A DNA stretch of 47,211 nt from Acidobacteriota bacterium (GTDB lineage: Bacteria; Acidobacteriota; Terriglobia; Acidiferrales; UBA7541), in the NCBI GenBank assembly GCA_003224145.1, contig QHYN01000207.1, forward strand, positions 1 through 47,211, written 5' to 3'. The position numbers and the translations under genes were made by a program. Position 1 is the stretch's first letter, and the number at the start of each line of letters is the position of its first letter. Below are positions 1 to 12,333 of this stretch, piece by piece. The notes beneath the pieces were generated by a model. The model saw nothing but the letters and a program-made list of their open reading frames with translations, made no database searches and was not told where the DNA came from.

Positions 1-103
1 TACGCTCGCCTTCGCTCCGTTCCGCGACAGCCAAACCCCCAGAGGAAAGAACACCAAGAGAATTCCCGTTCAGCTCTTCCTTTTTCTTCCTCGCCCTGCT
101 CAT
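1..103 (-). other. Possible start of a gene running off the left edge
   Basis: On the minus strand an ATG at 103 opens a frame that stays open to the window edge (34 codons, beginning MSRARKKKEEL). No domain can be recognised, the codons near the edge are repetitive (Glu/Arg/Gly/Ser) and no good ribosome binding site is visible. It would follow the 53-residue ORF at 127-288 on the same strand. It may be a gene fragment or chance. Confidence 0.15.
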
Positions 104-126
104 TAATTAAGGGTACTAGACTTGTC

Positions 127-288
127 TCAGAGATGTTGGCACGGAGGGGCTTTCGGCAGAAAGTGCTCGGCACCAAAGTCCAGTGACAGAAGGACAAATG
201 TATTCACAAAGAGCAGCGTAACAAAGACCCGAAACACCGGCGGCTCCTTGCCCACGAACTCGAATCTGTGTCGTCCTCCTCCCGGCAT
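127..288 (-). CDS. Small single-pass membrane protein (53 aa), unknown
   Basis: A 53-residue frame starts at ATG 288 behind GAGGAAACA, a fair ribosome binding site, and ends with TGA at 127-129. It has a basic N-terminus, one hydrophobic helix at about residues 19-36 (VFVTLLFVNTFVLLSL) and a short Pro/Cys/His tail, which is the shape of a small inner-membrane protein. The plus-strand frame over the same bases (122-400) begins with TTG, has no binding site and unusual composition, so the minus frame is preferred. Function is unknown; no family is recognised. Confidence 0.42.
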   Translation of the reverse strand: MPGGGRHRFEFVGKEPPVFRVFVTLLFVNTFVLLSLDFGAEHFLPKAPPCQHL

Positions 289-453
289 TGTTTCCTCGCC
301 GAATAGTCTGCCAGATTCTGGTAGCGTTTTGCTGTTGAACCGTTCAGTGAGTGCAAATATTCTGCCGCTGAAACCAGCCCAGGCGATTCTAGCTAGCTAA
401 CGCGTAGTTCACGCGGTTCCCGGAAACGGACCCACTGCCCGCGCACCAGCTCC

Positions 454-482
454 TTGACTTGCATGCACCAGAGGCACATAGT
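454..482 (+). promoter_or_regulatory. Candidate sigma-70 promoter for the GYD gene
   Basis: TTGACT (454-459) and CATAGT (477-482) are separated by 17 bases and lie 41 bases before the start at 524. The -35 matches 5 of 6 consensus bases and the -10 matches 4 of 6. No gene is seen in the rest of 289-523. Confidence 0.35.
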
Positions 483-523
483 CGTGCCTCCCCAGTATTC
501 CTTCCCCCTCAAGGAGGCTCACC

Positions 524-883
524 ATGCCGTTCTTTCTGCATCAGGTCAGTTACACGCCGGAAGCGCTCGCGCGGCTCATTGCCAATCCCCAGGATCGCTT
601 TGACGCTGTGCGTGCGCCCATCGACAAACTCGGTGGGAGGGTGTTGAACTCCTATTTTGCATTTGGAGAGTATGACGCCGTGCTGATCACCGAGATGCCG
701 GACAACGTTTCCGCCGCGGCGATCGCATTGGCGTTTGCCGCCGGCGGTTCGCTGCGCAACTGCCAGACCACGACGCTGCTGTCCAACGCCGAGGGCCTGG
801 AGGCCATGCGCAAAGCTGCCAACTGCGGCTATAAGCCGGTGCAGGCAGCCGCCAGCGGCGCCGCTGCTAAGCCCGGTTCTTGA
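524..883 (+). CDS. GYD domain protein
   Basis: This 119-residue protein matches the GYD family, small proteins of alpha/beta (ferredoxin-like) fold. Visible family features are the early 'SYTPEALARLI' segment, the middle 'FGEYDAVLITEMPDN' strand and turn (the family's G-[ED]-YD signature), and an Ala-rich helix. It is probably cytoplasmic; no biochemical role is established for most members. The start is well supported by AAGGAGG seven bases before ATG 524. The last 20 or so residues are Ala/Gly-rich and probably disordered. It appears to be a single-gene unit. Confidence 0.85.
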   Translation: MPFFLHQVSYTPEALARLIANPQDRFDAVRAPIDKLGGRVLNSYFAFGEYDAVLITEMPDNVSAAAIALAFAAGGSLRNCQTTTLLSNAEGLEAMRKAANCGYKPVQAAASGAAAKPGS

Positions 884-1024
884 AGGGCGCCGCGCCGTAA
901 GCAACGATTCCGCTCAGCCGAGTCGGGCCAACCCGCCGAATCGGGCCACGGCAAATTGGGAGTGTACCTTTCCGAGCCTATTTCTGCGCACCAAATGATA
1001 GACTCTGCTCGAAGGAGGCCTGCG

Positions 1025-1705
1025 ATGCGCCCGAATCGTCTGCTTACTCTTACTCTTTCACCGCTGGCCCTGCTTGTCGTTCTGCTCGCAGCTTATTTCC
1101 TTGTGGCGGAGCAGCGCGCCGAAGCGCAATCCGCGCAGCCTCAGCGCGAGCCCACCGCTGCCGAGATAAGCAAGAAGGAGACGGTGGCCTCCGCCTTTTT
1201 GCGTGGCCTGCAATACCAGGAATATGAAGTGCCTTCCGCCGCCGAAGCCATGCCGGAGGAAAAATACGGCTACCGCCCAGCAGAGGGCAAATTCAAGAAC
1301 GAAAGGCCGGAGTTCGGTCCCGCGGAGGTTCGCACGTTCGGCGAGCAGGTTAAGCACGTGGCCTGCGCGAATTTCGGCTTCGCCGCCGAACTCGATGGCA
1401 CGAAGCCGCCCGAGGCGTGTGATAAAGGCGGTCCGAGTCCCGCAAAGACGAAGAAGGAATTGCTCACATACTTGCGCGATTCGTTTGCCGCCGCTCGCAA
1501 ATCCCTCGGCGCCATCGACGCGAAGAACATGTTCGAGCCCATCGAAGGCCCCTACGCCGGGCCGAATACGCGCCTGGGCATAGCTACCGTCATCGTTTGG
1601 CACAACGCCGACCACTACGGCCAGATGGTGCTCTACCTGCGGGAAAACAATATCGTGCCGCCCGCCAGCCGCCCGAATCCACCGAAGCTGCAGGACACCT
1701 ACTAA
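1025..1705 (+). CDS. Secreted DinB-like (putative metal-dependent) protein
   Basis: ATG 1025 follows GAAGGAGG and gives a 226-residue protein; an earlier in-frame start at 956 lacks a binding site and would bury the signal peptide. Residues 1-35 form a Sec-type signal (RPNR then a long Leu/Val/Ala stretch ending AEAQ). The rest resembles the DinB/YfiT four-helix-bundle superfamily, whose members bind a metal through three His residues. Here the likely ligands are the His in 'QVKHVAC' and the two in 'HNADHYGQ', the family's typical C-terminal H-x3-H motif. Export is a feature of many acidobacterial members. The substrate is unknown. Confidence 0.75.
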   Translation: MRPNRLLTLTLSPLALLVVLLAAYFLVAEQRAEAQSAQPQREPTAAEISKKETVASAFLRGLQYQEYEVPSAAEAMPEEKYGYRPAEGKFKNERPEFGPAEVRTFGEQVKHVACANFGFAAELDGTKPPEACDKGGPSPAKTKKELLTYLRDSFAAARKSLGAIDAKNMFEPIEGPYAGPNTRLGIATVIVWHNADHYGQMVLYLRENNIVPPASRPNPPKLQDTY

Positions 1706-1735
1706 ACTGGTCGTCGTTGTAAGACTTCTTTTGAC

Positions 1736-1781
1736 TTGTACAAAAACGTGCAACTCCCATGATTTGTACGTTTCTGTACAA
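1736..1781. promoter_or_regulatory. Two TTGTAC-N6-GTACAA-like dyads forming a larger inverted repeat
   Basis: The bases at 1736-1753 (TTGTAC-N6-GTGCAA) and 1764-1781 (TTGTAC-N6-GTACAA) are each near-perfect or perfect dyads. They are also 16/18 inverted copies of one another across a 10-base spacer. The pair lies in the leader between the DinB-like gene and the small membrane protein gene at 1932. Paired palindromes of this size suggest tandem repressor sites; as RNA they could also form one long stem-loop. The cognate regulator is not evident here. Confidence 0.5.
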
Positions 1782-1931
1782 ATAATAAGAGTCGCCCATT
1801 TTCGCGGGCCGCCCGGATCCTCCGGAGTGGAAAGACTGAACTGCAGAGAGCCGTTTCGTGTATCGTGGGCTCACAGATTCCAGCAGCCTGCACCGCGGAT
1901 CCGTTTGGCAAGGCTCGCCTCTAGGAGGAAT

Positions 1932-2153
1932 ATGAAACGCGCTCTAATCATCGTCAGCGGCGTATCGGTCTTGTTCACCACCTTGGCCTTCGGGCACGTC
2001 ATGGTCCACGATACTGTGCACATGATGACCAGACATGAGGATAGCCATCTGTTCGTCGCTGTACACACCATTGTGGCGGTCGCCCTCGGCGTCCTGTCGT
2101 TGCTCGGAGCGTATTTTCTTCTGACGGGAGGGCGCCGCCAGAACTCGAACTGA
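1932..2153 (+). CDS. Small two-helix membrane protein (73 aa), unknown
   Basis: ATG 1932 sits six bases after AGGAGG. The 73-residue product has two hydrophobic helices (about residues 4-24 and 43-65). Between them is a His-rich loop (HVMVHDTVHMMTRHEDSH) with six His residues, which might bind metal. The longer in-frame ORF beginning at 1731 runs through the paired dyads and has no binding site. The gene is probably controlled by the operator-like repeats about 150 bases upstream. No family is recognised and the metal idea is only inference from composition. Confidence 0.6.
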   Translation: MKRALIIVSGVSVLFTTLAFGHVMVHDTVHMMTRHEDSHLFVAVHTIVAVALGVLSLLGAYFLLTGGRRQNSN

Positions 2154-2201
2154 GCTGTCGGCGCGTTCTGCTAAACTTTGGGTGTGTCCCCTCAAAATAC
2201 C

Positions 2202-2999
2202 ATGGAGAGCGTGAAGCCGAGGCTCGTCGGCATCCGCCTGCATCCGATCAAGGCGCTCGATCCGGTGCAGGTGAAAGAAGCGCGCATCGGCCCGGGCGGC
2301 GGGCTGGAATTCGACCGCGCCTGGGCGCTGTACTCTGCGGACGGCCAGTGGGTGAACGGCAAGCGCACCGCCGCCGTTCACTTGATCCGCGCCGCGTATG
2401 CGCCGGACCTCAGCTCCGTCACGCTTTCCCTTCCCGGCGATCGCGGCGGCATTCCCACGAAAACTTTCGACTTTCCGGGGGGCTCGGCGGACGCGGCGCA
2501 ATGGTTCAGCGCGTATTTCGAGCAGCCCATCACGGTGCGCCATTCTCCCGAAGGCTTTCCGGACGACACCGTCGCCAACGGCCCGACGATCATTTCGACG
2601 GCCTCGCTCGACGCGGTGGCGGCGTGGTTTCCCGGGCTGACTTCCAGCGACATGCGGCTGCGCTTTCGCACCACGCTGGAATTGGATGGCGTCCCGGCGT
2701 TTTGGGAAGATCAGCTTTTCGGCGCGGACCCGAACACGGCGGTGCGCTTTCGCATCGGCGATGTGAATTTCGAGGGCAGCAATCCCTGCGCGCGATGCCC
2801 GGTCCCTCCGCGCAATCCGCACACCGGCGCGGAGTTCACCGGCTTTCAGAAGCGCTTCACGGAACTCCGTCGCGCGACGCTCTCTCCTTGGTCGCCGCAG
2901 GAGCGTTTCGATCACTACTACCGCCTGGCCACCAACACGCGCGTCGCTCCGAGTGAGGCCGGCAAATCCCTTCGCGTCGGTGACCTGCTAGTGATCTGA
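2202..2999 (+). CDS. MOSC domain protein
   Basis: The 265-residue protein has an N-terminal MOSC beta-barrel (opening 'LVGIRLHPIKAL', with the family's YP[IV]K-like element as HPIK, then 'LEFDRAWALYSADGQW') and a C-terminal MOSC domain. The C-terminal domain carries 'NFEGSNPCARCPVPPRNP', whose Cys is the residue MOSC enzymes such as Moco sulfurase and mARC use for molybdenum-cofactor or sulfur chemistry. It therefore probably handles Moco or sulfur, but the substrate cannot be read from sequence. ATG 2202 is chosen over a TTG at 2178; neither has a strong binding site. No Moco genes lie nearby. Confidence 0.85.
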   Translation: MESVKPRLVGIRLHPIKALDPVQVKEARIGPGGGLEFDRAWALYSADGQWVNGKRTAAVHLIRAAYAPDLSSVTLSLPGDRGGIPTKTFDFPGGSADAAQWFSAYFEQPITVRHSPEGFPDDTVANGPTIISTASLDAVAAWFPGLTSSDMRLRFRTTLELDGVPAFWEDQLFGADPNTAVRFRIGDVNFEGSNPCARCPVPPRNPHTGAEFTGFQKRFTELRRATLSPWSPQERFDHYYRLATNTRVAPSEAGKSLRVGDLLVI

Positions 3000-3209
3000 A
3001 GGTCCAACGGCGAACAGTCCGTCCTGCAAATCATCGAAGGGGAGACAGGACGCCATCTCATTCACCGAAATTGCGCTGTTGTGCCGACAAACAGGTTGCC
3101 CACGCGTTGCTGCCATGGAATCTGGTAAGCTTCTGCGCTTGAACGATCCTGTGGTCTTTTCTTTAGCTCCTGTTGCCTTGGAGGACCGCCTCGAAGCGGA
3201 GCGGTGTTC

Positions 3210-4205
3210 ATGAACTTTGTCGACCGCGGCCTGGTTGCGGTGCACAAATTCCGGCGCTGGTGGAGCCGCCGCGTCCTCCGGCAACCCTGGATGCTCGAAC
3301 AGTTTGGCAATCCCTTCCTTCAAGAGAGCATGCTGCTGGACAAGGCGCGTTGCGAAGCCTATCGCGAGGCGATTTTCCGCACGGTAAAGCCGGGCGACGT
3401 GGTGGTGGATCTTGGCGCCGGTACCGGTTTGCTCTCGTTCTTCGCGGCGCAAGCGGGAGCGCGCCGGGTCTATGCGCTGGAGATGAGCAAGATCGCCGAT
3501 GTGACCGCGGAGTTGATCGAAGCCAACGCCGTGCGCGATCGCATCACGCTGATTCGCAAAAACTCGAGAAGGGCGCGGCTGCCAGAACGCTGCGACGTCC
3601 TGGTCACCGAAACTCTCAGCGCGTTTTGCTTCGACACGGAAAACACCATCGAGTACGTCGCCGACGCCCGAGAGCGCTTCCTGAAGCCCGGCGCGCGCAT
3701 CATTCCCGAATCCGCGGACACCTTTCTTCTGCCGTTTGCTTCGCAAGCGTTTGGCGCGGGACGGCTGCCATTGCCGTTCTACGGCATCGATTTCCGCCCG
3801 TTCCGGAAAAGACTTTTCGGCGAGTTTGGCCTCGTGCGCGCTTCCGGCAAGCCGTTTGTTGCGCTCAGCCAGGCCGCGCTTTGCTACCACATCGATTTTC
3901 GCAAGGACATCAAGAACCCCACGAAGACTTTCGTTCCTTTTCGCATCACCACCGATGGCCGCCTAGATGGCTTCCTCGGCTGGTTCGAGGCGCGGCTGTG
4001 CGAAGGCGTTACGCTCAGCAACTCGCCCTACCTACCGCTCACGCACTGGTGGCAGCACTGCCTTCCCGTTGCGGAACAGCCCTCCTATCGCGCCGGCCAG
4101 ATGCTTCTCCTCTGCCTCGATCCCAACATGGTTGCCGGCGAAGCCCATTGGAAATACGCCGTCCAGCCCGCCATTTCAGATTCTCTTCCTGTTCGGCAAG
4201 AATGA
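3210..4205 (+). CDS. PRMT-like SAM-dependent methyltransferase
   Basis: The 331-residue protein has a class I SAM-binding fold: motif I VVDLGAGTG at about 65-73, followed by an acidic strand end (YALEMS, about 89-93). The sequence around it, including 'FFAAQAGARRVYALEMS' and 'TETLSAFCFDTENTIE', resembles eukaryotic protein arginine methyltransferases more than ordinary small-molecule methyltransferases. Two Glu residues, E134 and E144, fall where PRMTs carry their 'double-E' loop, though ten rather than nine residues apart. A C-terminal beta-rich half (about 170-325) would match the PRMT barrel. ATG 3210 is preferred over GTG 3204 because of its distance from GGAG. The natural substrate is unknown. 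Confidence 0.75.
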   Translation: MNFVDRGLVAVHKFRRWWSRRVLRQPWMLEQFGNPFLQESMLLDKARCEAYREAIFRTVKPGDVVVDLGAGTGLLSFFAAQAGARRVYALEMSKIADVTAELIEANAVRDRITLIRKNSRRARLPERCDVLVTETLSAFCFDTENTIEYVADARERFLKPGARIIPESADTFLLPFASQAFGAGRLPLPFYGIDFRPFRKRLFGEFGLVRASGKPFVALSQAALCYHIDFRKDIKNPTKTFVPFRITTDGRLDGFLGWFEARLCEGVTLSNSPYLPLTHWWQHCLPVAEQPSYRAGQMLLLCLDPNMVAGEAHWKYAVQPAISDSLPVRQE

Positions 4206-4280
4206 GCCGCCTTTAAGCTGGGAACAAACGAGCTCAACTCGGCGTCTGTATAGCAGCCGAGGTGAAAAAGGCATGCCTCC

Positions 4281-4703
4281 ATGACTTGGAACCCATGGAC
4301 ATTTTTCCTAATGCTTGACTATTTCTCGCGAATTTATTTTGTTGGCGCACTGTTTTTTGCATTTTGGAGCTTCATAACTATTATCCGAATCATAGTTGGC
4401 GTTCAATCGATGAAAGTACGATCGGACAATTTCAAGGAATCTGCGTATTCAGAGCTGGAAAGGATGAACCGCAACGTCCATTCGATCTTTTCTCTGGGCT
4501 TGACTTTCACGGGGGGCTGCTGCGTCAACCAAATCTTCGGGGTCTGCTTTGTATACATGGCTCGCGCTACCGACGCGAATCCATTCTTTGCGCTTCGCCA
4601 AGCGTGGATTGTTATGCAGGTCTTGCTATGCCTTCTTGTCTCGTTAGATGCCGTCCGCCGATATGGTTCCTCAACTCTCGAACGACATCGTCCCGAACGT
4701 TAG
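4281..4703 (+). CDS. Hypothetical multi-pass membrane protein (140 aa)
   Basis: The 140-residue product is strongly hydrophobic, with about three predicted helices: residues 7-38, 68-93 and 105-125. A polar linker (SDNFKESAYSELERMNRN) lies between the first two. The arrangement faintly recalls MotA/TolQ-type channel subunits, but no defining motif is present, so no function is assigned. Binding-site evidence is weak (GAGGTGAAAAAGG is 8 or more bases upstream). GC content is lower than that of its neighbours, which might mean acquisition from elsewhere. Its 3' end is only 21 bases from the convergent ORF that ends at 4725. Confidence 0.55.
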   Translation: MTWNPWTFFLMLDYFSRIYFVGALFFAFWSFITIIRIIVGVQSMKVRSDNFKESAYSELERMNRNVHSIFSLGLTFTGGCCVNQIFGVCFVYMARATDANPFFALRQAWIVMQVLLCLLVSLDAVRRYGSSTLERHRPER

Positions 4704-4724
4704 ATTTGTGGCCTTCACTGGATT

Positions 4725-5123
4725 CTAAGCACCGGCAGCAAAGTATTTCCTCGGAGGGAACATGCCGCGGCGCAGCAATTCCCTGCCGCAACGATGGCGG
4801 ATCTGCTCCGACCAATTCACCCAACTGTGCTCGCTCAAGCCGAGAAAATGCCGCGCCGTTTCATACGGAGCGAGCCCCAGGTAGTAGAGGCGGAACAGTA
4901 CCATGCGCGAAGCCCACTCCGGGCCATCGAGCGCCGCCTGCCCCGCCAGCGCAAAATCCGCCACCCACTCGCTCAGCTTCGGCCGGATATCCGGCCGCCA
5001 CAGAAATTTCTCCGTGTCCTTCCAGTTCCGCGCAGAAACGCCGCGCTTCGTCTCCAGCACTTCCCGCGCGCCACGATACACTTCCCAGCACACATCAAAC
5101 GCCAGCTCCGGTTTGACGCCCAT
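4725..5123 (-). CDS. Unknown protein with a C-terminal HTH-like segment (islet ORF C)
   Basis: ATG 5123 lies close behind GGCGGAGGAG and gives a 132-residue protein. It is Trp-rich (eight Trp) with many charged helices. The C-terminal part, 'LGLAPYETARHFLGLSEHS' followed by 'WVNWSEQIRHRCGRELLRRG' and 'MFPPRKYF', reads like a sigma-region-4 or transposase-type helix-turn-helix followed by a short tail. It comes right after ORF B (27-base gap) on the same strand and may be translated with it. Small pairs of this type occur in prophage regulatory regions, but I cannot name the family; function is unassigned. Confidence 0.6.
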   Translation of the reverse strand: MGVKPELAFDVCWEVYRGAREVLETKRGVSARNWKDTEKFLWRPDIRPKLSEWVADFALAGQAALDGPEWASRMVLFRLYYLGLAPYETARHFLGLSEHSWVNWSEQIRHRCGRELLRRGMFPPRKYFAAGA

Positions 5124-5149
5124 AGCTCCTCCGCCAACGCTATTGCGAT

Positions 5150-5509
5150 CTACCGCGTCATCGCACGAGGAGCCAGCCGCGCCCTCTGCCGCCGCCTCCG
5201 CTTCCGCCCCACAATTCTGCGAACCGGGCGCTGGAGTTGATATTCCCAAACCGTGCCGAAATCTTCCCCGCGCAGAATTTTGCCCGTTGTGCGCTGCTGT
5301 TTCTCCACCTCGAATCCGCCGAACTGCGGCTTGCGCAGATGCCGCAATTGCGCGGAAATGCTCGCGGGCGGGTAATGCGTCAGCTTGGCGAGCTCGTCGA
5401 GCGTCAGCCACGTTTCACATTCCCGCGCGCTCAGCATCACGTCACAAAGCACATCGCGCTGCCTCCGCCGCAGACTCCCCTGCGCCGCCCTTCGCCCCGT
5501 CCTCCCCAT
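5150..5509 (-). CDS. Winged-helix-like DNA-binding protein (islet ORF B)
   Basis: ATG 5509 follows GGGAGGGGGG at good spacing. The 119-residue product contains a winged-helix-like core at about residues 25-90: 'LTLDELAKLTHYPPASISAQL' (cut here at positions 35-55) with a recognition-helix look, a basic wing 'RHLRKPQFGGFEVEKQQR', and a closing strand 'GTVWEYQL'. The N- and C-termini are Arg-rich. This suggests a small transcriptional or replication regulator. The gene is the middle one of three close minus-strand ORFs. Arg-rich ends and high GC make chance coding in other frames likely; those were discarded. Confidence 0.6.
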   Translation of the reverse strand: MGRTGRRAAQGSLRRRQRDVLCDVMLSARECETWLTLDELAKLTHYPPASISAQLRHLRKPQFGGFEVEKQQRTTGKILRGEDFGTVWEYQLQRPVRRIVGRKRRRRQRARLAPRAMTR

Positions 5510-5532
5510 GTCCGCCCCCCTCCCGCCGCTGG

Positions 5533-5826
5533 CTACGTCTCGGCAGGAAACTCATCCGCCGCCGGCCGCGGCCCGCTTGTGCCTTCATCGTCGTCACTCT
5601 CGCCCTGCGTCCAGGCCGTACGGTCCGGGTCCTCGTAATCTCCTGCGCATGCACTGCATGCGCGTACCGCGCCCTGCGTGCAAACTCTTCCGTCCCCGGA
5701 CATACCGCAGGAGACTCCCTGCCCGCTCCAAGGCTGTAAATCCGACCGCCAAGGTTTTGCACAGTTTTCCACAGATATTAGAGACTCGGTACTATAGACA
5801 TTAACTAATGGCCTGTTACTTTTCAT
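5533..5826 (-). CDS. Uncertain upstream ORF of the islet (ORF A), possibly frameshifted
   Basis: Two overlapping minus frames look partly coding. Frame 1 starts with GTG at 5762 and begins MQNLGGRIYSLGAGRESPAV; its first 40 residues look natural, then it degenerates into Arg/Gly. Frame 2 (5826-5533) has an implausible start but a natural acidic end, 'DPDRTAWTQGESDDDEG'. A single protein of about 75 residues made from the first part of frame 1 and the last part of frame 2 would end 23 bases before ORF B, so a frameshift near 5640 (error, decay or programmed) is possible. No function can be given. Confidence 0.3.
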   Translation of the reverse strand: MKSNRPLVNVYSTESLISVENCAKPWRSDLQPWSGQGVSCGMSGDGRVCTQGAVRACSACAGDYEDPDRTAWTQGESDDDEGTSGPRPAADEFPAET

Positions 5827-5851
5827 TTATATTGCTCTCCAGGAGGCCCAC

Positions 5852-6169
5852 GTGCCCGGTTCCAAAATGCAACCCCCGTGGGAGTTCCTTCTCACGGCCT
5901 CGCGCAACTCGCTGCAGAGCTTTGAACTTTCTCGTCTCAGCCATGCCGCCAATCTCCGCAAAGAAATTGGCGCACTGCTGGATGAATGGCTGGATGAAAA
6001 CGCTTGCGCCATGCTGGCGCGCTGGCTCATCGAGAAGCACGAACGGCCTTTGCGCGATACAAAGGCCGCTCGGGCCGATGAATCGCTGCCGCCGCACCGG
6101 CATTCTGTGTCCGATAATGTTTTTGCGAAGGGGGACCCGGCGTCGCCCGTAAACCGCGGCTCCGCATGA
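5852..6169 (+). CDS. Small helical protein of unknown function (105 aa)
   Basis: GTG 5852 follows AGGAGG with a five-base spacer, which decides the start (an internal ATG at 5867 lacks one). The 105-residue product is helical for residues 8-65, with Leu/Ala-rich amphipathic segments (SRNSLQSFELSRLSHAANLR) and several Trp residues, then a polar disordered tail. A long antisense frame covers the region but has no binding site and poor composition. It starts 26 bases from the left end of the divergent islet ORF A, so the two could share a promoter region. No known domain is recognised. Confidence 0.6.
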   Translation: MPGSKMQPPWEFLLTASRNSLQSFELSRLSHAANLRKEIGALLDEWLDENACAMLARWLIEKHERPLRDTKAARADESLPPHRHSVSDNVFAKGDPASPVNRGSA

Positions 6170-6513
6170 GGGAAGAACTATTTTTGGTGACGAAAACCGC
6201 AAATTGCCGCTGAATTCGCTGGAGGGCGCGACGCTCACGCGTTCTCTTGCTGGTGTGCGCCGATTCTCGCTTGGGGAGGCATGCCATTCGCGCAACGCAA
6301 TGCGCTTCTCCAGCGCCGCGCATCCTCGCGCCCAGACCCCGCTGCTTCCGCGCATCCACTCCTCGCTCGCCACGCCATCCTCCGATAACTTGCGTCTTCG
6401 TCACCTTATAAGTATTAGAGGACACGCGAGGAGGGCGATCGGAACATCCGCGTCACCCGCAGGCACACTTTGGCAAATGTCCTGAAACGCGGAACGACTA
6501 CACGCGCCAATTC
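6170..6513. other. Region without a supported gene
   Basis: Between the 105-residue ORF and nuoI there are 344 bases. Open frames exist on both strands but are Arg/Ser-rich, lack binding sites and overlap neighbours. No tRNA, clear terminator or repeat was seen. Confidence 0.5.
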
Positions 6514-6987
6514 TTAGCGCGACCTTGCAGGAACAGCCGGAGCTTTTTCGAGGAGTTGTTCTTTACGGTAGACGAGAGAGTTGATGTCGTACGTTGCGAG
6601 CTCGAATCCGTGGCCATGCGTGATGGCATCGGTCGGGCACGCTTCGACGCAGTACCCGCAGAATATGCACCGCGAATAATCAATGTTATATACGCTTGCA
6701 TAACGCTCACCGGCAGAGATCCGGTTGGCGTCGGTGTTCTCCGCCGCTTCAATATAGATGCAATTTGCTGGGCAGGCCGCCGCGCACAGAAAGCAGCCCA
6801 CACATTTCTCAAGACCGTTTTCATCGCAGTGCAGCACGTGGATACCCCGATAGCGCGGCTGAAAGTGCACAGGCTCATAGGGGTAGTTTTCCGTGACGGT
6901 CTTCCGGAACATGTTGCGGAAAGTCAGGCTGAAGCCCTTCACCAGCGCCCCGAAAGTTTCGCCTACTTCACGAAGAATAGATGGCAT
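6514..6987 (-). CDS. nuoI: NADH-quinone oxidoreductase subunit I (8Fe ferredoxin-type)
   Basis: The 157-residue protein has the NuoI layout: an N-terminal amphipathic anchor ('GALVKGFSLTFRNMFRK'), the 'PYEPVHFQPRYRGIHVL' segment, and two [4Fe-4S] motifs. The cluster ligands are C62-C65-C68-C72 and C107-C110-C113-C117. In complex I this subunit carries clusters N6a and N6b and passes electrons toward the quinone site at the membrane. No other nuo gene is in the window; it is the last gene of the run from parA, 69 bases after ypdA. It is either a detached complex I gene or an extra copy. Confidence 0.9.
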   Translation of the reverse strand: MPSILREVGETFGALVKGFSLTFRNMFRKTVTENYPYEPVHFQPRYRGIHVLHCDENGLEKCVGCFLCAAACPANCIYIEAAENTDANRISAGERYASVYNIDYSRCIFCGYCVEACPTDAITHGHGFELATYDINSLVYRKEQLLEKAPAVPARSR

Positions 6988-7056
6988 CGGTTAGCAGTCT
7001 AACAAACGCAAAGGGTGCCAGCAAATTAGTGCTTGAACTCCCCTTTCTGGCGCCTC

Positions 7057-8028
7057 TTATTTCTTCAGTGCTTCAATGATTTGTTTACCGTGGAACCGGC
7101 CGTTTTCGATGAAGATCTCGCTGGTGTGCCGTCCGCCAATCACAACTCCTGCCAGATGGATTCCCCGCACGTTGCTTTCGAGGGTATTCGGGTCCAAGGC
7201 CGGTTTTTTACTCTCCGGATCGAGCCTCACCCCCAGGCTTTCCATGAAGGAATAATCGGGGTGATATCCCGTTAACGCAAACACCTGCTTCGCCGGAATT
7301 CTTTTCGTTCGGGCATGCTGCTCGACGACCACCTCTTCTTTCGTGATTTCATCCACGCGGGTCTGCAACAGGGCCTGAATCTGTCCGGCCTTGATGCGGT
7401 TTTCGATATCCGGACGAACCCAGTATTTAATCGTCGCGCCCAGCTCCTTTCCGCGGTGCACGAGCGTCACCCGCGCCCCGCTTCGATACAGATCGAGCGC
7501 CCCCTCCGCAGCCGAATTCTTCCCGCCAATCACCACAACGTCCTGATTCCAGAATGCGTGAGGTTCCGTGTAGTAATGGGAAACGTGCAGGAGATTTTCG
7601 CCCGGCACGCCGAGCAGGTTCGGCAAATCGTAATAACCGGTCGCGACGGCGATTTTTTTGCCGTGATATTTTTCTATCGTTCCTTTCTCGGTCTTTGTAG
7701 CTACCGTAAAGTTTCCGTCGTTCCCATCAACGTCCAAAACTGTTTCGTACAACCGCAGCTCCAGGCCGTAGTGCTCCGTGGCTTTGCGGTAGTATTTCAG
7801 CGCTTCCAAGCGCGTGGGTTTCTCCCCGGCACACACCAGCGGCAAGTCTCCGATTTCGAGCAGTTCCGGCGTGGTGAAGAACACCATATTCACCGGATAG
7901 TGGTAAATCGAATTGCAAAGGCAAGCCTTGTCAATGACCAAGGGCTGCATTCCCGCGCGCTTCGCTTCGATTGCGGTGGCGAGCCCTGTCGGTCCCGCGC
8001 CGATGCAGATAATGTCGTACGTTTTCAT
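7057..8028 (-). CDS. ypdA: YpdA-type FAD/NAD(P) disulfide reductase-like protein
   Basis: The 323-residue flavoprotein has an N-terminal FAD Rossmann motif (IGAGPTG, residues 9-15) and a second dinucleotide motif (VVVIGGKNSAAEGA, about 167-180). A C-terminal 'GIHLAGVVIGGRHTSEIFIENG' segment is typical of the YpdA (Bdr) family. That family lacks the CxxC of thioredoxin reductase; in Firmicutes it reduces bacillithiol disulfide with NADPH. A lone Cys pair near 36-38 (ACLCNSIYHYP) fits the conserved N-terminal Cys region. Whether this organism makes bacillithiol is not shown here. It lies between a small unknown gene and nuoI. Confidence 0.88.
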   Translation of the reverse strand: MKTYDIICIGAGPTGLATAIEAKRAGMQPLVIDKACLCNSIYHYPVNMVFFTTPELLEIGDLPLVCAGEKPTRLEALKYYRKATEHYGLELRLYETVLDVDGNDGNFTVATKTEKGTIEKYHGKKIAVATGYYDLPNLLGVPGENLLHVSHYYTEPHAFWNQDVVVIGGKNSAAEGALDLYRSGARVTLVHRGKELGATIKYWVRPDIENRIKAGQIQALLQTRVDEITKEEVVVEQHARTKRIPAKQVFALTGYHPDYSFMESLGVRLDPESKKPALDPNTLESNVRGIHLAGVVIGGRHTSEIFIENGRFHGKQIIEALKK

Positions 8029-8076
8029 GGGACTTGAGTTTGCCGGGAGCCCCGGTGAATAGCAAATTTCCGCGGT

Positions 8077-8412
8077 TTATTGGTCCGGCGGCAAGTCCAA
8101 GATCTCAGCAAGTTCTTTTCGAAACGTCTCCAGTTCGCGCAGTTTCTCGGGGGCCGCTTCCACTTCCTGTTTTTTCCGTACAAACACCTCGCGGCCGCCC
8201 CGCTTCAGCTTCACACTGAAGTTTCCGTCCACCAGATAAGAAGGAGGCGCCAGCAGTTTTAATCCGCCATCCCGGATGGGCGCGAGGACTGCGGCGCATT
8301 CGCCCTTCTTGATGCACAGGGCGTTCTCGTAGGGCGGGATCGCAACGGGCCGAAAGCCAGCTTCAAAAAGCCGCTCCATGACTTGCATTTGGCGTGGAGA
8401 GAGTTCAACCAT
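8077..8412 (-). CDS. Small conserved-looking protein of the parAB operon, unknown
   Basis: The 111-residue protein is compact and soluble: an N-terminal helix ('LSPRQMQVMERLFEAGF'), a central beta region ('NALCIKKGECAAVLAPIRDG'), then a charged C-terminal coiled helix ('APEKLRELETFRKELAEIL'). It sits 50 bases after parB and 48 before ypdA, same strand, so it is probably co-transcribed. No catalytic motif is visible and I do not recognise the family. The two Cys residues might be redox-active given the ypdA neighbour, but this is speculation. Confidence 0.7.
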   Translation of the reverse strand: MVELSPRQMQVMERLFEAGFRPVAIPPYENALCIKKGECAAVLAPIRDGGLKLLAPPSYLVDGNFSVKLKRGGREVFVRKKQEVEAAPEKLRELETFRKELAEILDLPPDQ

Positions 8413-8462
8413 TCGGATGGATCGCGGACATGAGTTTGCCGCTCCCGGGCAGCGAATTGCCT

Positions 8463-9320
8463 CTACGCCGCCGTGGTGTCCGCTTCGGACGAAGACCCCT
8501 CGAGCTGCGTCAGAATCTCGCGCAACGTGGAGATCAATTCATCGCGGGAAACATGGCTCTTTTTAAACTGAATCCGGAATTTGAAGGTTTCGCTGGGTGG
8601 CTCGAACTGAAAGATGAAAGGCCGGGGCCGTTGCGGACCCATCTGGTCTTCGCGCCGTTCGCGCCGTGCCTCATCCCGCGTCAGCCCGCCCTGCATGATG
8701 CGGTGGAACATCTCGATCATTTTCTTTTCGGCGGGCTGCCGGGCGATCTGCAACAGGAGCGACTTCGAAAGAATTCCATGTTCCATGCACTTCTTGCGCA
8801 GCGAATCGGGTATGTTCCGCAGCGAAAGCGTCTCCGTCACGGAAGAGCGGGCCCGGCCAATCTTCTTGGCGATGTCCTCATGCGTGTATTCAAACTGCGT
8901 GTTCAGCCGATGCAGGCCGTCCGCTTCTTCAAACGGCGTCAAGTCCTTGCGCTGAATATTTTCGATGAGCCCGAGCTCTAGCGTCTCCGCGTCATCGGCC
9001 ATCTTCTCGATGCACGGCACTTCCCGCAATCCTGCCGCGCGTGACGCATGGTACCGCCGCTCTCCCGAAATAATGTAGTAGCAGTCCTCTCGCGGTACGT
9101 ACCGCACCAGCAGCGGCTCCAGCACTCCTTTCTCGCGGATGGACTCCGTGAGCTCCCGCAGATCCCCCAGTGCCTTACGTGGCTGATCCGGGTTCGGACG
9201 GATCTGGTCCACCCGGATCATCCGCCCGACGGCCGCCCCGCTATAACTGGTCAACGATTCTACGTAGTGCGCGTCATGCCGCATCTTCAGCGTGACGGGC
9301 AACCCGATCCTCTTCGACAC
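8463..9320 (-). CDS. parB: ParB-type chromosome partition protein
   Basis: The protein has the ParB N-terminal CTP-binding domain, with box motifs 'IRPNPDQPRK' and 'GERRYHASRAAGL' (GERR at about 86-89). A central helix-turn-helix ('YTHEDIAKKIGRARSSVTET') binds parS, and a C-terminal segment would dimerise. GTG 9320 is chosen (285 aa): it has GGGGGAGG nine bases upstream and keeps the 'GLPVTLKMRH' segment that resembles other ParB starts; ATG 9284 is the alternative. Either start overlaps the parA 3' end, implying coupled translation. With ParA it should segregate the chromosome. No parS consensus site was noticed in the window. Confidence 0.88.
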   Translation of the reverse strand: MSKRIGLPVTLKMRHDAHYVESLTSYSGAAVGRMIRVDQIRPNPDQPRKALGDLRELTESIREKGVLEPLLVRYVPREDCYYIISGERRYHASRAAGLREVPCIEKMADDAETLELGLIENIQRKDLTPFEEADGLHRLNTQFEYTHEDIAKKIGRARSSVTETLSLRNIPDSLRKKCMEHGILSKSLLLQIARQPAEKKMIEMFHRIMQGGLTRDEARRERREDQMGPQRPRPFIFQFEPPSETFKFRIQFKKSHVSRDELISTLREILTQLEGSSSEADTTAA

Positions 9321-10074
9321 GTTGGATAACCTCCCCCGCGAGTTTTTTGTACTCGACCGCGCCGGGTGACTTCGGCGCAAAAGTTAAAATCGTTTCTTTG
9401 TATGCGGGACTCTCTTCCAACCGCACATTCTTGGTGATCTTCGTCCTGAAAAGGACTTCGCCGAACACACTGCGAATCTGTCCGTGCGTATCCTTGGAAA
9501 TGTTCGTTCTTTTGTCAAACAGCGTGATCACCACGCCGAGCACTTTCAGTCCCGGGTTGGGGCGCGCGCGGATTCGCTCGTATGTTTCCAGAAGATCGTC
9601 CGTACCTTCGATCGCAAAATACGCCGCCTGAATGGGCACCAGCAAATGCGTCGAAGCCACCAGGGCATTCACTGTCAAGATTCCCAGCGACGGCGGAGTA
9701 TCTAAAATCACATAATCGTAATCTTTCAGCACCGCCGCAAGAGCGTCCTTCAATCGATATGGCGCGTCGAACTGTCCCGCCAGCACCTGTTCCAGCTTCG
9801 CCAATGCCAACCGCCCGGGCCCCAAAAACAGCATGGAATCTTTCGTAGCTTTGATCACCGCAGACAATCCAACGCGGCTGTCGCTGAGAACTTCAAACAT
9901 CGACGTGGAGATTTCCCCGGCATCATAAAAGGCGATCGTCGAATTGGCTTGCGGATCAAGATCGATCAGCAGCGTGCGCTTACCGCGATGCGCCAGCGCC
10001 GCGGACAAATTGATTGCCGTGGTAGTCTTTCCTACGCCGCCTTTCTGATTCGCAATCGTAATGATGGCAGTCAT
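9274..10074 (-). CDS. parA: ParA-type partition ATPase
   Basis: The 266-residue protein begins 'MTAIITIANQKGGVGKTTTA', with the deviant Walker A motif KGGVGKTT at residues 11-18. The 'LIDLDPQANS' Walker A' element and 'YVILDTPPSLG' Walker B follow. It forms an ATP-dependent dimer on the nucleoid that positions ParB-parS complexes. ATG 10074 with GGAGG upstream is preferred over the longer frame from 10128. It is the first gene of the minus operon parA-parB-unknown-ypdA-nuoI. Confidence 0.92.
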   Translation of the reverse strand: MTAIITIANQKGGVGKTTTAINLSAALAHRGKRTLLIDLDPQANSTIAFYDAGEISTSMFEVLSDSRVGLSAVIKATKDSMLFLGPGRLALAKLEQVLAGQFDAPYRLKDALAAVLKDYDYVILDTPPSLGILTVNALVASTHLLVPIQAAYFAIEGTDDLLETYERIRARPNPGLKVLGVVITLFDKRTNISKDTHGQIRSVFGEVLFRTKITKNVRLEESPAYKETILTFAPKSPGAVEYKKLAGEVIQRVEEDRVARHAEDAA

Positions 10075-10198
10075 CTGTTTCTGCCTCCGCCCGTCTGCCC
10101 CTGCCAAATTCGAGGGGCGCGCGCACAAGCAAACCGCCGCGTTCCGGCAACTGGGTTCCTATATATGGGTGTCGCCTCCAGAAAACCCCCAAGGCCTA

Positions 10199-10231
10199 GG
10201 TTACTTTACGTTCGTAACCCATCATTGGCAA
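10199..10231 (-). promoter_or_regulatory. Candidate parA promoter overlapped by a dyad
   Basis: Read on the minus strand, TTGCCA (10231-10226) and TAAAGT (10208-10203) are 17 bases apart. The region also holds the inverted repeat GGTTAC-N9-GTAACC (10199-10219) and, inside it, TTACG-TT-CGTAA. A dyad over the -10 suggests repression, perhaps ParA-ParB autoregulation. The leader to ATG 10074 is about 125 bases. Confidence 0.4.
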
Positions 10232-10318
10232 GGGAAAAAGTGCGGGGTCCCCGGAAATCAGGGTGGAAAACCAAAAGTCGCAAGATGCGAGCCCACCGCA
10301 AATTTACCGGTCAGCGTC

Positions 10319-10654
10319 TTAGAAGTCGAGGCCCCAGAAATCGCCGGGCGGTTCTTGAAGTTCAAAACCGAGCTCCCACCCCGCAGGCCCCTCGTGTCCA
10401 CGCCAGATCAGGACCGCGTCACTAGCACTCTGGTTGATTAGATTGATGATCCGCAGTTTCTGCCCTATGACAACGTCGTGCGGCACCATGGCCAGGCAGC
10501 CCTTCGGGCTGATGTCCTTTGTGAAGCCTTCCGCCCGAAGCGCATGCCCGTCCTCGGTCCACTCAATCGCAACCGGCACGCGGGAATTGAGGCGCCCCGC
10601 GCCGCGAATATGCCTTCCCTTCTCGTCAAATTTCACCTGTTCTGTCAGCGGCAC
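10319..10654 (-). CDS. PilZ domain protein
   Basis: The 111-residue protein is one PilZ domain. It shows the c-di-GMP-binding RxxxR motif (RLNSR, residues 21-25) and the DxSxxG motif (DISPKG, about 47-52), followed by the usual beta-barrel strands ('QKLRIINLINQ', 'WELGFELQ'). It probably binds cyclic di-GMP and acts as a small adaptor; the partner is unknown. It is upstream of the parA promoter on the same strand but separated by 245 bases, so it is probably its own unit. Confidence 0.85.
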   Translation of the reverse strand: MPLTEQVKFDEKGRHIRGAGRLNSRVPVAIEWTEDGHALRAEGFTKDISPKGCLAMVPHDVVIGQKLRIINLINQSASDAVLIWRGHEGPAGWELGFELQEPPGDFWGLDF

Positions 10655-10938
10655 TCGATTCCCCCACGATCAATTGAATTTCAGTCTTGGCTTGGCACAT
10701 CAGTTCGCTTGCTGGGAAGGGTCACTCATAGGGAAGCCCAAACCGCAACAACATCACAGCCTATGGATGGCCAAAGTCCGGGTCAATGGATCTTCGCTCC
10801 AAGTACGCCCCGGAAGTTAACACCCTGATCCTTCCGGTCTGTCCACTTGATTTTCGCCGATCCGGAAAGCAAGATCTCCCGCCTCGGTTTGCGCCTTTCC
10901 TTCTGCCCGCTTACACTCTCCTAGCTGCTCGCGCGCTC

Positions 10939-12333
10939 ATGATCAGCCTCCCGGTACTTCGCCACGAACTCCGCCCCACCATTCGGCTCGCTCTGCCATT
11001 GGTGCTCGCAGAAATCGGCTGGATGAGCATGGGCATCGTGGATACCATCATGGTTGGTCACCTGCCTGATAGCGCGCGCGCCATCGGTTCCGTCAGCATC
11101 AGTTCCAACCTCTTCAACGTCCTGGCTTTTTTCGGCGGCGGCGTGCTTATCGGGCTCGATACTCTCGTCGCTCAAGCCTTTGGTGCCGGTCAGCGCGAAG
11201 ATTGTCACCGGTCGTTGGTCAACAGCATTTATCTCAGTATTGTCATGACGCCCTTCCTCATGGTCCCCGTGTGGTACTTCGAGCCTCTGCTCCAGTCTCT
11301 GCGCGTGGAACCGCAAGTCGCCGCACTCGCCGTCCCTTACATGAAAGCCCTTGCTTTCGGCCTCTTCCCGCTGCTCTTGTACTTCGCTGTGCGCCGTTGC
11401 CTGCAGGCCATGAACATGGCACAACCCATCGCCTTCGCGCTGGTAAGCGCCAACATCATCAACGCCCTCTTCAACTGGATTCTCATCTACGGCAAATGGG
11501 GCGCGCCTGCCATGGGTGTTGTAGGGTCTGGTTGGTCCACAGCAATCTCCCGCGTCTATTTAGCCGTGCTGCTCGTGTCCTATCTTCTCTGGTACGACCG
11601 CCGGCATCGCACGGAGTTGCTGAAGACGCCGATCAATATCGACTTTGTTCGAATCCGCCGCCTGATCTCTCTCGGCCTGCCCGCCGCTGTACAAATCACT
11701 CTGGAAATCAGTGTCTTTGCGCTCGCCACCGCTCTGATCGGCCGCTTGGGCGCCATCGCTCTCGCCAGCCACCAAATTGCACTGAACACCGTGGCATTCA
11801 CCTACATGGTTCCCCTCGGAATTTCTTCCGCTGCTGCGGTTCGCGTAGGCCACGCCATCGGCCGCGGCAAACCAATTCCCGCTGGCCACGCAGGCGACAC
11901 CGCCATCATTCTCGGCGCTACGTTCATGACCCTTGCCGCTGTAGCACTCCTCGTCTTCCCCCGCTGGATCGCCCGGATGTATACCCCGGACGAGACCGTC
12001 ATCCGCAGCACGGTCCTTCTTCTGGCCGCGGGCGCGGCCTTTCAGCTGTTCGATGGAATTCAGACTGTCGCCACAGGCGCATTGCGCGGCGCGGGAGACA
12101 CCCGGACGCCGATGCTTTGCCACTTCACGGCCTACTGGATTATCGGCCTGCCGCTCGGGGTCTGGCTCTGCTTCTGCCGAAGCTGGGGCGCCTTCGGCAT
12201 TTGGTCGGGTTTAAGCCTCGCGCTAATCCTCATCGGCATCGTTCTGCTCTTCGCGTGGCGTCGTGCGGTTCGGCGTCTCGCAGTAGGGCCCTCGCCTGAG
12301 CGCCAACCCGAAACAAATTCCGTGCCTGATTGA
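10939..12333 (+). CDS. MATE-family multidrug/cation exporter (NorM-like)
   Basis: The protein is 464 residues from ATG 10939, the usual MATE length, with twelve hydrophobic helices in two pseudo-repeats. Landmarks are 'LVLAEIGWMSMGIVDTIMVG' in helix 1, 'GLDTLVAQAFGAGQ' after helix 2 and 'AAAVRVGHAIGRGKP' in the second repeat, all typical of NorM. It would use Na+ or H+ to pump drugs or metabolites across the inner membrane. The longer frame from 10786 has a non-membrane N-terminus and is rejected. No binding site is obvious at 10939. It is a single-gene unit. Confidence 0.9.
   Translation: MISLPVLRHELRPTIRLALPLVLAEIGWMSMGIVDTIMVGHLPDSARAIGSVSISSNLFNVLAFFGGGVLIGLDTLVAQAFGAGQREDCHRSLVNSIYLSIVMTPFLMVPVWYFEPLLQSLRVEPQVAALAVPYMKALAFGLFPLLLYFAVRRCLQAMNMAQPIAFALVSANIINALFNWILIYGKWGAPAMGVVGSGWSTAISRVYLAVLLVSYLLWYDRRHRTELLKTPINIDFVRIRRLISLGLPAAVQITLEISVFALATALIGRLGAIALASHQIALNTVAFTYMVPLGISSAAAVRVGHAIGRGKPIPAGHAGDTAIILGATFMTLAAVALLVFPRWIARMYTPDETVIRSTVLLLAAGAAFQLFDGIQTVATGALRGAGDTRTPMLCHFTAYWIIGLPLGVWLCFCRSWGAFGIWSGLSLALILIGIVLLFAWRRAVRRLAVGPSPERQPETNSVPD

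Follow-up and report, generated by a model that had tools for sequence, protein, structure and literature searches.

What do three short open reading frames (ORFs), packed on the minus strand at positions 4725-5826 of the 47,211-nucleotide contig QHYN01000207.1 (the window, meaning this whole stretch) from an Acidobacteriota bacterium, do for the cell that carries them? A preliminary description had recognized a three-ORF islet that resembled a phage regulation module. The comparisons presented here suggest that it is probably the regulator operon of a domesticated phage, a gene transfer agent (GTA)-like element in two pieces, in which the protein P0001 would be an antiterminator of the Q/AlpA type and P0002 its partner. 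Conservation, a fixed location, co-occurrence, a promoter-TAGA-terminator layout, tandem DNA boxes and phage homologues at the Q position are read directly from the sequences compared; antitermination, promoter strength, DnaA control, the role of P0002 and particle production are what we infer. The islet was recovered where it had been reported, and consists of the first three of the following features:

4725-5123, minus strand: P0001 (ORF C), a 132-residue helical helix-turn-helix (HTH) protein, proposed Q/AlpA-type late antiterminator
5150-5509, minus strand: P0002 (ORF B), a winged-helix protein, proposed partner regulator
5533-5826, minus strand: P0003 (ORF A), a short ORF with a conserved core
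5611-5664, minus strand: codons of the P0003 core RACSACAGDYEDPDRTAW (coordinates counted by hand)
5852-6169, plus strand: divergent ORF (c2) of about 105 residues that accompanies the P0001/P0002 pair, possibly a fourth member

The three islet ORFs are co-directional, and 26 bp separate P0002 from P0001. The genome search set comprised 61 genomes: the window's own, 35 others of its genus and 25 from outside the genus (the 36 genus genomes referred to below include the window's). P0001 was matched in 24 of the 36 genus genomes and P0002 in 20, neither being matched in any of the 25 others. All 20 genomes with P0002 also have P0001, so that the co-occurrence of ORFs B and C, proposed as a check on the preliminary description, is borne out in 20 of the 24 P0001 genomes; P0001 stands without a P0002 match in G005, G006, G021 and G028. 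The P0001 alignment (22 sequences) has 41 invariant positions among its 134 columns. The median pairwise ratio of nonsynonymous to synonymous substitution (dN/dS, here and below only for pairs with dS<2) is 0.14 for P0001 (22 sequences), 0.35 for P0002 (15 sequences) and 0.40 for P0003 (9 sequences). The islet genes are conserved beyond chance, and the islet is real. P0003 had been suspected of a frameshift; its frame is open and shows no sign of one, and its core RACSACAGDYEDPDRTA is common to the relatives. The P0003 start is uncertain because the upstream part of the ORF overlaps a conserved DNA element at 5756-5773, discussed below.

No islet protein reaches a Pfam or NCBIfam cut-off, and the best PHROGs match has E 0.016. 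For P0001, Pfam gave nothing up to E 5, NCBIfam no family and a set of 50,697 annotated phage genome records no match, P0002 finding three weak matches in that set; a PDB sequence-profile search gave 0 hits for the P0001 and P0002 alignments, and an Rfam scan of window positions 1-12000 gave no match. The folds first guessed from the letters agree with the AlphaFold2 models, in which P0002 is a winged helix (predicted local distance difference test, pLDDT, 74) and P0001 is all-helical with an HTH like that of sigma region 4 (pLDDT 80). With VIA-align, P0001 is best matched by AlpA (7xya, Z 6.8, 4.4 Å over 101 residues; 7xyb, Z 6.1), and sigma region 4 gives Z 6.6 and 5.6. A Foldseek search of P0001 against the PDB gave no significant match (best E 2.2), and against viral models the best match is an uncharacterized phage protein (E 1.8e-3), sigma-like phage proteins following at E 0.13 or worse. 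The best VIA-align rows of P0002 (Z 7.6-9.8) include BirA, MarR and Zalpha domains among others.

The next question is what such a pair would regulate. Three host genes of the window mark the place:

6514-6987, minus strand: NuoI-like host gene on the regulator-side flank (name read from the sequence)
2178-2999, plus strand: MOSC protein, a conserved host gene between regulators and cluster (PF03476, 3.5e-11)
524-883, plus strand: host gene of the GYD type, with the Pfam match made for its G034 relative; in several relatives the cluster begins past it

The window contig stops 523 bp beyond the GYD gene, near the expected start of a structural cluster. In the relatives, a co-directional block of about 20 phage-type genes comes after the MOSC gene, and often a GYD gene, of the opposite strand. 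Its proteins include the terminase TerL (PHROG E 6.8e-40), a major head protein (PHROG E 1.4e-5), a 982-residue virion structural protein (1.4e-8) and a transglycosylase (Pfam 2.1e-13). In G009, G034, G035, G019 and G007 the cluster occupies 24-33 kb between the same host genes (G007 showed no GYD gene), beginning about 3-4 kb beyond P0001 and ending at DsbA-like and NAD synthase (NadE) genes; in G003 and G027 it was placed by its left end and by distance. The preliminary description was right that no phage structural gene lies inside the window, but the relatives carry a conserved head-and-tail cluster next door, past the end of the contig. Nor does the word "remnant" suit the window's own genome, whose contigs C150 and C64 bear TerL, portal-like, major head and tape-measure-like genes, with the DsbA-NadE pair found on C119. 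As read from these sequences, the element would thus lie in two pieces, the regulators between the NuoI-like and MOSC genes and the structural cluster between MOSC/GYD and DsbA-like/NAD synthase.

TerL was found in 15 of the 36 genus genomes, in addition to a broken 37-residue scrap in G029. The head protein is single-copy in 13 genomes, and the 12 copies outside G027 share 88-97% identity with the G027 one. Phage-type structural genes thus occupy one chromosomal place in many genomes of the genus, as expected of a GTA. The ORF before TerL (d2) was considered as the small terminase, TerS; it matches neither a TerS family nor the TerS of the phage-like contig L229, and no TerS is therefore identified in the cluster. 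No integrase or replication gene was recognized among 20 core (Pfam, PHROGs) and nine accessory (Pfam) cluster proteins, most of which match no family. Two additional genes lie within the G009 cluster on the opposite strand, a Fic/Doc gene (L125:14142-15341, minus) and a gene for a PAS hybrid histidine kinase (L137:8101-10521, minus); G007 also has an ORF of the hybrid-kinase group (d32). Near the cluster end, an ORF of 186-215 residues groups with the portal-like d0 of about 900 residues, and its G022 counterpart matches d0 residues 13-211 at 63%, which suggests a duplicated segment of d0. Outside the family, L262 (G037, another family of the order) keeps the gene order TerL, d0-like, head protein (54%), d15-like, d18-like in a genome with no P0001 match, and may represent a related phage or a second such element.

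The flanks had been singled out as something to check for change. In the loci compared, the outer host genes are the same on the NuoI side and on the DsbA-NadE side, and it is the P0001-MOSC interval that varies, for instance in G027, which has an insertion of roughly 10 kb there. On the regulator side TrxR-NuoI is kept in the loci compared, and ParA-ParB in most (absent in G034 and G035); the names TrxR, NuoI, ParA and ParB are our reading of the sequences, not the result of profile searches. Within the same interval the window has an ORF resembling a protein arginine methyltransferase (3204-4205, plus; PrmA 1.5e-8, PRMT_C 5.3e-5, below its cut-off), with a clustered counterpart only in G022 among the loci compared. 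The low-GC flank noted previously is also there (GC 0.48 at 4251-4750, adjoining the islet), and contains beside P0001 an ORF for a membrane-protein-like product of 140 residues (4281-4703, plus) that matches no family above cut-off.

The distance from P0001 to NAD synthase reflects whether the cluster is there: 29-47 kb with it (G009, G034, G035, G019, G007, G003, G027) and 4.8-17.6 kb in G013, G006, G030, G022 and G028, five genomes where TerL had no match. Pieces of cluster genes are left at the site in G022 (d25-like, d0-like), G012 (d6-like at 97%, d25-like), G006 (d15 and d12 pieces), G013 (d25 piece) and G010 (d25-like); none was seen in G028 or in the part of G030 examined. Among genus genomes without P0001, nine of 12 loci were looked at. 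Seven of these have TrxR-NuoI-MOSC-(GYD)-DsbA-NadE together with no P0001, P0002 or searched cluster gene; the remaining two are G010, with its d25-like piece, and G014, which is too short to tell. In the empty sites the host genes between the places of the two pieces span 2-9 kb. Across the 36 genomes TerL and P0001 are both present in 15, P0001 alone in nine and neither in 12, and TerL is never alone (Fisher 2.6e-4, a guide only because the genomes are related; the G029 scrap was scored as absent). The empty sites and these counts indicate, therefore, that the two pieces come and go almost together. Moreover, P0001 is broken in four of eight genomes without TerL (G006, G012, G021, G028) and in none of the 14 that have TerL (p 0.0096, leaving out G026 and G030 for their N runs and scoring G004, with a stop after the conserved end, as intact), some of these breaks being possible assembly errors.

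The same counts bear on whether P0001 and P0002 could be a host regulator in its own right, acting on other genes and lying near the cluster by chance. Such a pair would naturally sit apart from the cluster behind host genes, as it does (15 kb away in G027), and could persist intact where TerL has no match, as P0001 does in four genomes. It would not explain why none of the 15 TerL genomes lacks P0001, why P0001 is broken only in genomes without TerL, or why two phage homologues described below precede terminase genes, and we consider it highly improbable. The divergent ORF c2, which had escaped the first reading, keeps company with the pair: it is present in 21 of 26 P0001 loci compared (an eye count that leaves out the phage L095 and the unrelated L090). 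Three of the five loci without it (L093, L094, L067) end too early, and the two others, G006 and G028, are also without P0002. In six of eight P0001-less sites the NuoI-MOSC space (54-342 bp) is too small for c2, which itself matches no family.

An alignment of the DNA before the first cluster gene revealed a promoter followed by a hairpin, and the pattern (a sigma-70 promoter, then a strong hairpin with a T-run within 80 bases) was used to scan both strands of 27 sequences (1,049,946 bases). Nineteen sites were found, all on the cluster strand and all after MOSC/GYD, with none elsewhere in the scan; a Markov-resampled control gave one match in 3.7 Mb. They cover 13 of the 14 cluster genomes scanned (G026 was left out) and the contigs L091-L094, and the pattern is absent from six P0001 genomes without TerL. 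All 19 have an exact TTGACA, a 16-bp spacer and a TG before the -10. A TAGA(A/G)A element, with T, A and A invariant, stands eight bases past the -10, and the terminator stem begins 16-23 bases past it, that is, about 10-16 nt into the transcript if the start is 7 nt after the -10. Two of the hairpins were folded (-19.9 and -21.9 kcal/mol; z -4.6 and -5.3). An ATTTCTC-like stretch is conserved directly before the -35, and between -35 and -10 no conserved binding element beyond the TG was found. Where both are on one contig, this late promoter comes 1.6-6.3 kb after the start of P0001, or 15-16 kb after it in G027 with its inserted genes. The promoter-terminator unit is tandemly duplicated in G027 (L132, 15715 and 16324), with ORF d47 in between, and G003 also has two copies. 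In 70 viral loci (2.02 Mb, both strands), most of which do not show the expected stretch, the pattern is at the expected place in L160, L168 and L214, and off-place matches on the other strand occur in four IMG/VR loci (L171, L178, L182, L185). At the level of sequence, then, the arrangement has what Q and AlpA use, a promoter with a -10-like element and a promoter-proximal intrinsic terminator.

Antiterminators of this kind are encoded before phage late genes. Pattern-based scans of 2.9 million viral contigs yielded P0001 homologues on four chromosomal-type contigs (L091-L094) and three phage-like ones (L095, L229, L230), and a short weak match on L096, in keeping with the earlier impression of a phage regulation module. 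On L229 a terminator (-18.2 kcal/mol) separates the homologue (50% identical) from the small terminase (PHROG 1.3e-28) and TerL genes behind it, this TerL sharing 49% identity with that of the cluster. On L230 (30%) one small ORF and a terminator come next, and 1.6 kb farther along are a small terminase (8e-5) and TerL (39%). L095 (70%) has a small membrane-protein ORF and a terminator (-20.7) after its P0001 homologue. The gene is thus placed before late genes in L229 and L230; L095 has the terminator but no terminase directly after it.

The regulator operon has its own conserved upstream DNA:

5756-5773, minus strand: tandem DnaA-box-like element TGTGGAAA-AC-TGTGCAAA, from the alignment upstream of the regulators
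5791-5819, minus strand: candidate promoter GTAACA-17-TATAGT of the regulator operon (weak: two promoter-like sites, 0.8 expected)

The consensus of the boxes is TGTGGAAA-NN-TGTG(G/C)AAA. A scan of both strands of 1.48 Mb that allowed at most one mismatch gave 20 matches, each of them upstream of P0001, and a 21st locus, G023, has the tandem boxes with two mismatches. They are absent in G006 and G028, where P0002 is lost, and L093, L094 and L067 end too early to show them; none were found in the 1.5 kb before P0001 of the phage L095, a stretch that stops short of its P0002. Looser single boxes (TGTG[GC]A[AT]A) reach 4.6 per kb in the DNA preceding nine dnaA genes from the genus, compared with 0.18 per kb across 20 loci from the region under study. 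The string TTTTCCACA is mentioned together with "DnaA box" in the literature. These features suggest that DnaA may control the regulator operon.

Collectively, the data lead to the following model. The P0003-P0002-P0001 operon would be driven from the promoter region with two DnaA-box-like sites, probably read by DnaA. The sigma-70 promoter before the structural cluster, presumably a strong one, would fire, and polymerase would halt at the intrinsic terminator. In the manner of Q and AlpA, P0001 is proposed to load onto polymerase pausing at the TAGA element and to take it through the terminator into the 24-33 kb operon of head, tail and transglycosylase genes. P0002 might help by binding DNA at the regulator operon, at the late promoter or at both.

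Is the element maintained, or is it decaying? An old phage without its former integrase, resident as a cryptic prophage that is kept by drift or for immunity and makes no gene-transferring particles, would account for the frequent decay (nine of the 24 P0001 genomes have no TerL match, four have a broken P0001, and pieces remain at the site), for the lack of any recognized integrase or replication gene, for cargo such as the Fic and hybrid-kinase genes of G009, and for the imperfect look of the copy in the window's genome. What it fits poorly is the selection on the structural genes. Median dN/dS is 0.09-0.15 for the head protein (0.10), TerL (0.13), d18 (0.10), d0, d15, d17 and d20, near the value of host TrxR (0.12) and above that of NuoI (0.07); d11 and d23 have 0.18-0.21, and d9 (0.39), d12 (0.31) and d25 (0.30) evolve faster. 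The structural genes are, in other words, under purifying selection, as those of a GTA should be. Retention of the late promoter in nearly all cluster genomes scanned and the same site in the genomes read also speak against a decaying prophage, which we regard as unlikely.

Agreement with the descent of the host is partial. RpoB and head-protein distances are correlated (Mantel r 0.62, p 0.0027, 10 genomes), and G007-G009 and G034-G035 are sisters in both trees. Mantel tests with flank genes are mixed, being strong for many cluster genes and weak for some pairs such as ParB-c2, ParB-d17 and TrxR-ParB. The case for long residence therefore rests on place, leftover pieces and selection, not on identity of the trees.

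The near relative in IMG/VR raises another explanation, an active temperate phage family that always uses the same chromosomal integration site, so that the genus genomes would be lysogens. Contig IMGVR_UViG_3300050821_008264 (in two halves, L095 and L220) looks temperate. In addition to homologues of P0002 (46%) and P0001 (70%) and a head protein 82-84% identical to that of the cluster (on L220), it has an integrase (1.3e-16), a repressor (3.2e-6) and an exonuclease (1.3e-4), and the cluster itself occurs on many IMG/VR contigs. The relative differs from the chromosomal element, however, in these three genes, in having its regulators 3 kb apart and in the order of its structural genes, and its integrase, exonuclease and repressor had no match in 17 segments searched (tblastn with the integrase). 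Host genes split the regulators from the cluster and keep the same place in genomes without either piece, and no integrase is recognized in the cluster (where many proteins match nothing), which is not what an integrated temperate prophage would look like. A head-protein tree of 74 sequences unites the 13 copies from the genus with 32 IMG/VR contigs in one clade (98/100). Five rows labeled as having phage gene order (L181, L189, L191, L217, L220) fall within the clade and 22 outside it, the labels having been set by eye, some on lower identity alone, with the phage L230 mislabeled. Thus, the chromosomal copies and most contigs like them group together and most lower-identity rows lie outside. 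On these grounds together, we hold the lysogen explanation improbable. Another 27 IMG/VR rows in the range L160-L228, given the phage label by eye from their gene order or lower identity, mostly show 74-82% identity in the head protein.

A domesticated, GTA-like element with P0001 as its antiterminator remains the probable answer, and several observations weigh against it. The one late promoter visible in the window's genome (on C150) reads TTCACA with a 9-bp spacer; a second copy, such as G027 has, could lie in the unsequenced gap. The contigs of that genome are not joined, d20 was not found in it, and the named genus genomes are all metagenome-assembled. Since the promoter and box patterns come from alignments of these same loci, only their absence elsewhere acts as a control. 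P0001 is intact without a TerL match in G002, G013, G022 and G023, and in G013 and G022 the site was seen to be free of the cluster. G005 has TerL and P0001 with no P0002 match, and its boxes are only 343 bp before P0001; P0002 may therefore be dispensable there. On L095, the terminase does not directly follow P0001, a partial TerL match lying about 9.5 kb further. The names portal-like (d0) and tape-measure-like (d12) come from size and order alone. The agreement with the host tree is partial, the deeper branches being poorly supported and partly differing, and the Z of 6.8 between the P0001 model and AlpA may reflect just a common helical arrangement, as the tool warns.

GTAs have been described in a few lineages. 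A limited literature search found no published description of one in Acidobacteria, preprints and most subscription journals being outside its scope. Going one step further, to a true GTA in this soil genus, with genes unrelated to the known ones, DnaA-box control followed by Q-type antitermination, and an independently evolved counterpart of GafY/GafZ, is tentative, and we give it a little less than an even chance. If it is true, soil Acidobacteria, abundant and mostly uncultured, would have a new route of gene exchange, gene transfer would be tied to the replication state of the cell, and many "viral" contigs from soil and peat metagenomes would be this bacterial organelle; as many as 32 IMG/VR contigs that group with the chromosomal copies may need relabeling. 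Such a GTA could also explain part of the nonviral DNA in soil viromes, a possibility raised in PMC6172770. One small protein, one promoter and one terminator make up a switch that is directly testable.

How does the islet compare with known regulators? In Rhodobacter capsulatus, GafA is a GTA regulator with DnaA-like and sigma-like DNA-binding domains, and in Hyphomicrobiales a small DnaA-like gene mostly precedes a shorter gafA (PMC9638019). Here, in contrast, the DnaA resemblance is in DNA boxes at the regulator promoter, not in a protein, and P0002 is modeled as a winged helix. Membership of P0001 in the GafA/GafZ family (DUF6456) finds no backing, the profiles being silent and a DUF6456 phage protein giving just E 1.7 in the structure search, and the cluster proteins scanned match no Pfam family named for a GTA. 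For Q and AlpA, the published accounts (PMC9371919, PMC7969949) describe a pause sequence resembling a -10 element at the very start of the transcript, with an intrinsic terminator beyond it. The likeness to Pseudomonas aeruginosa AlpA lies in the layout of the late promoter, with a terminator soon after the start (26 or 54 nt for AlpA targets; about 10-16 nt to the stem here, from the presumed start), the position of the gene before late genes in phages and the fold similarity over 101 residues. AlpA differs in driving lysis genes and in the lack of a sequence match to P0001 among PDB entries; moreover, the element here has no conserved sequence between -35 and -10 beyond the TG.

In its proposed operation the element resembles the Caulobacter crescentus GTA, for which PMC11150451 reports that GafZ carries polymerase through a terminator. 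That cluster is 14 kb, the present one about twice as long (24-33 kb), and the same paper describes the GafZ models as unlike AlpA or Q, whereas AlpA is the best fold match of P0001. We found no family in common, the sequences not having been compared directly, and because no shared sequence family was found we file the islet as working like GafY/GafZ, not as a member. What the two would share is the logic: a chromosomal cluster of phage type is switched on by a pair of neighboring regulator genes, and one of the two proteins, with a sigma-like HTH, works as an antiterminator where a terminator comes after the promoter, which is the role predicted here for P0001.

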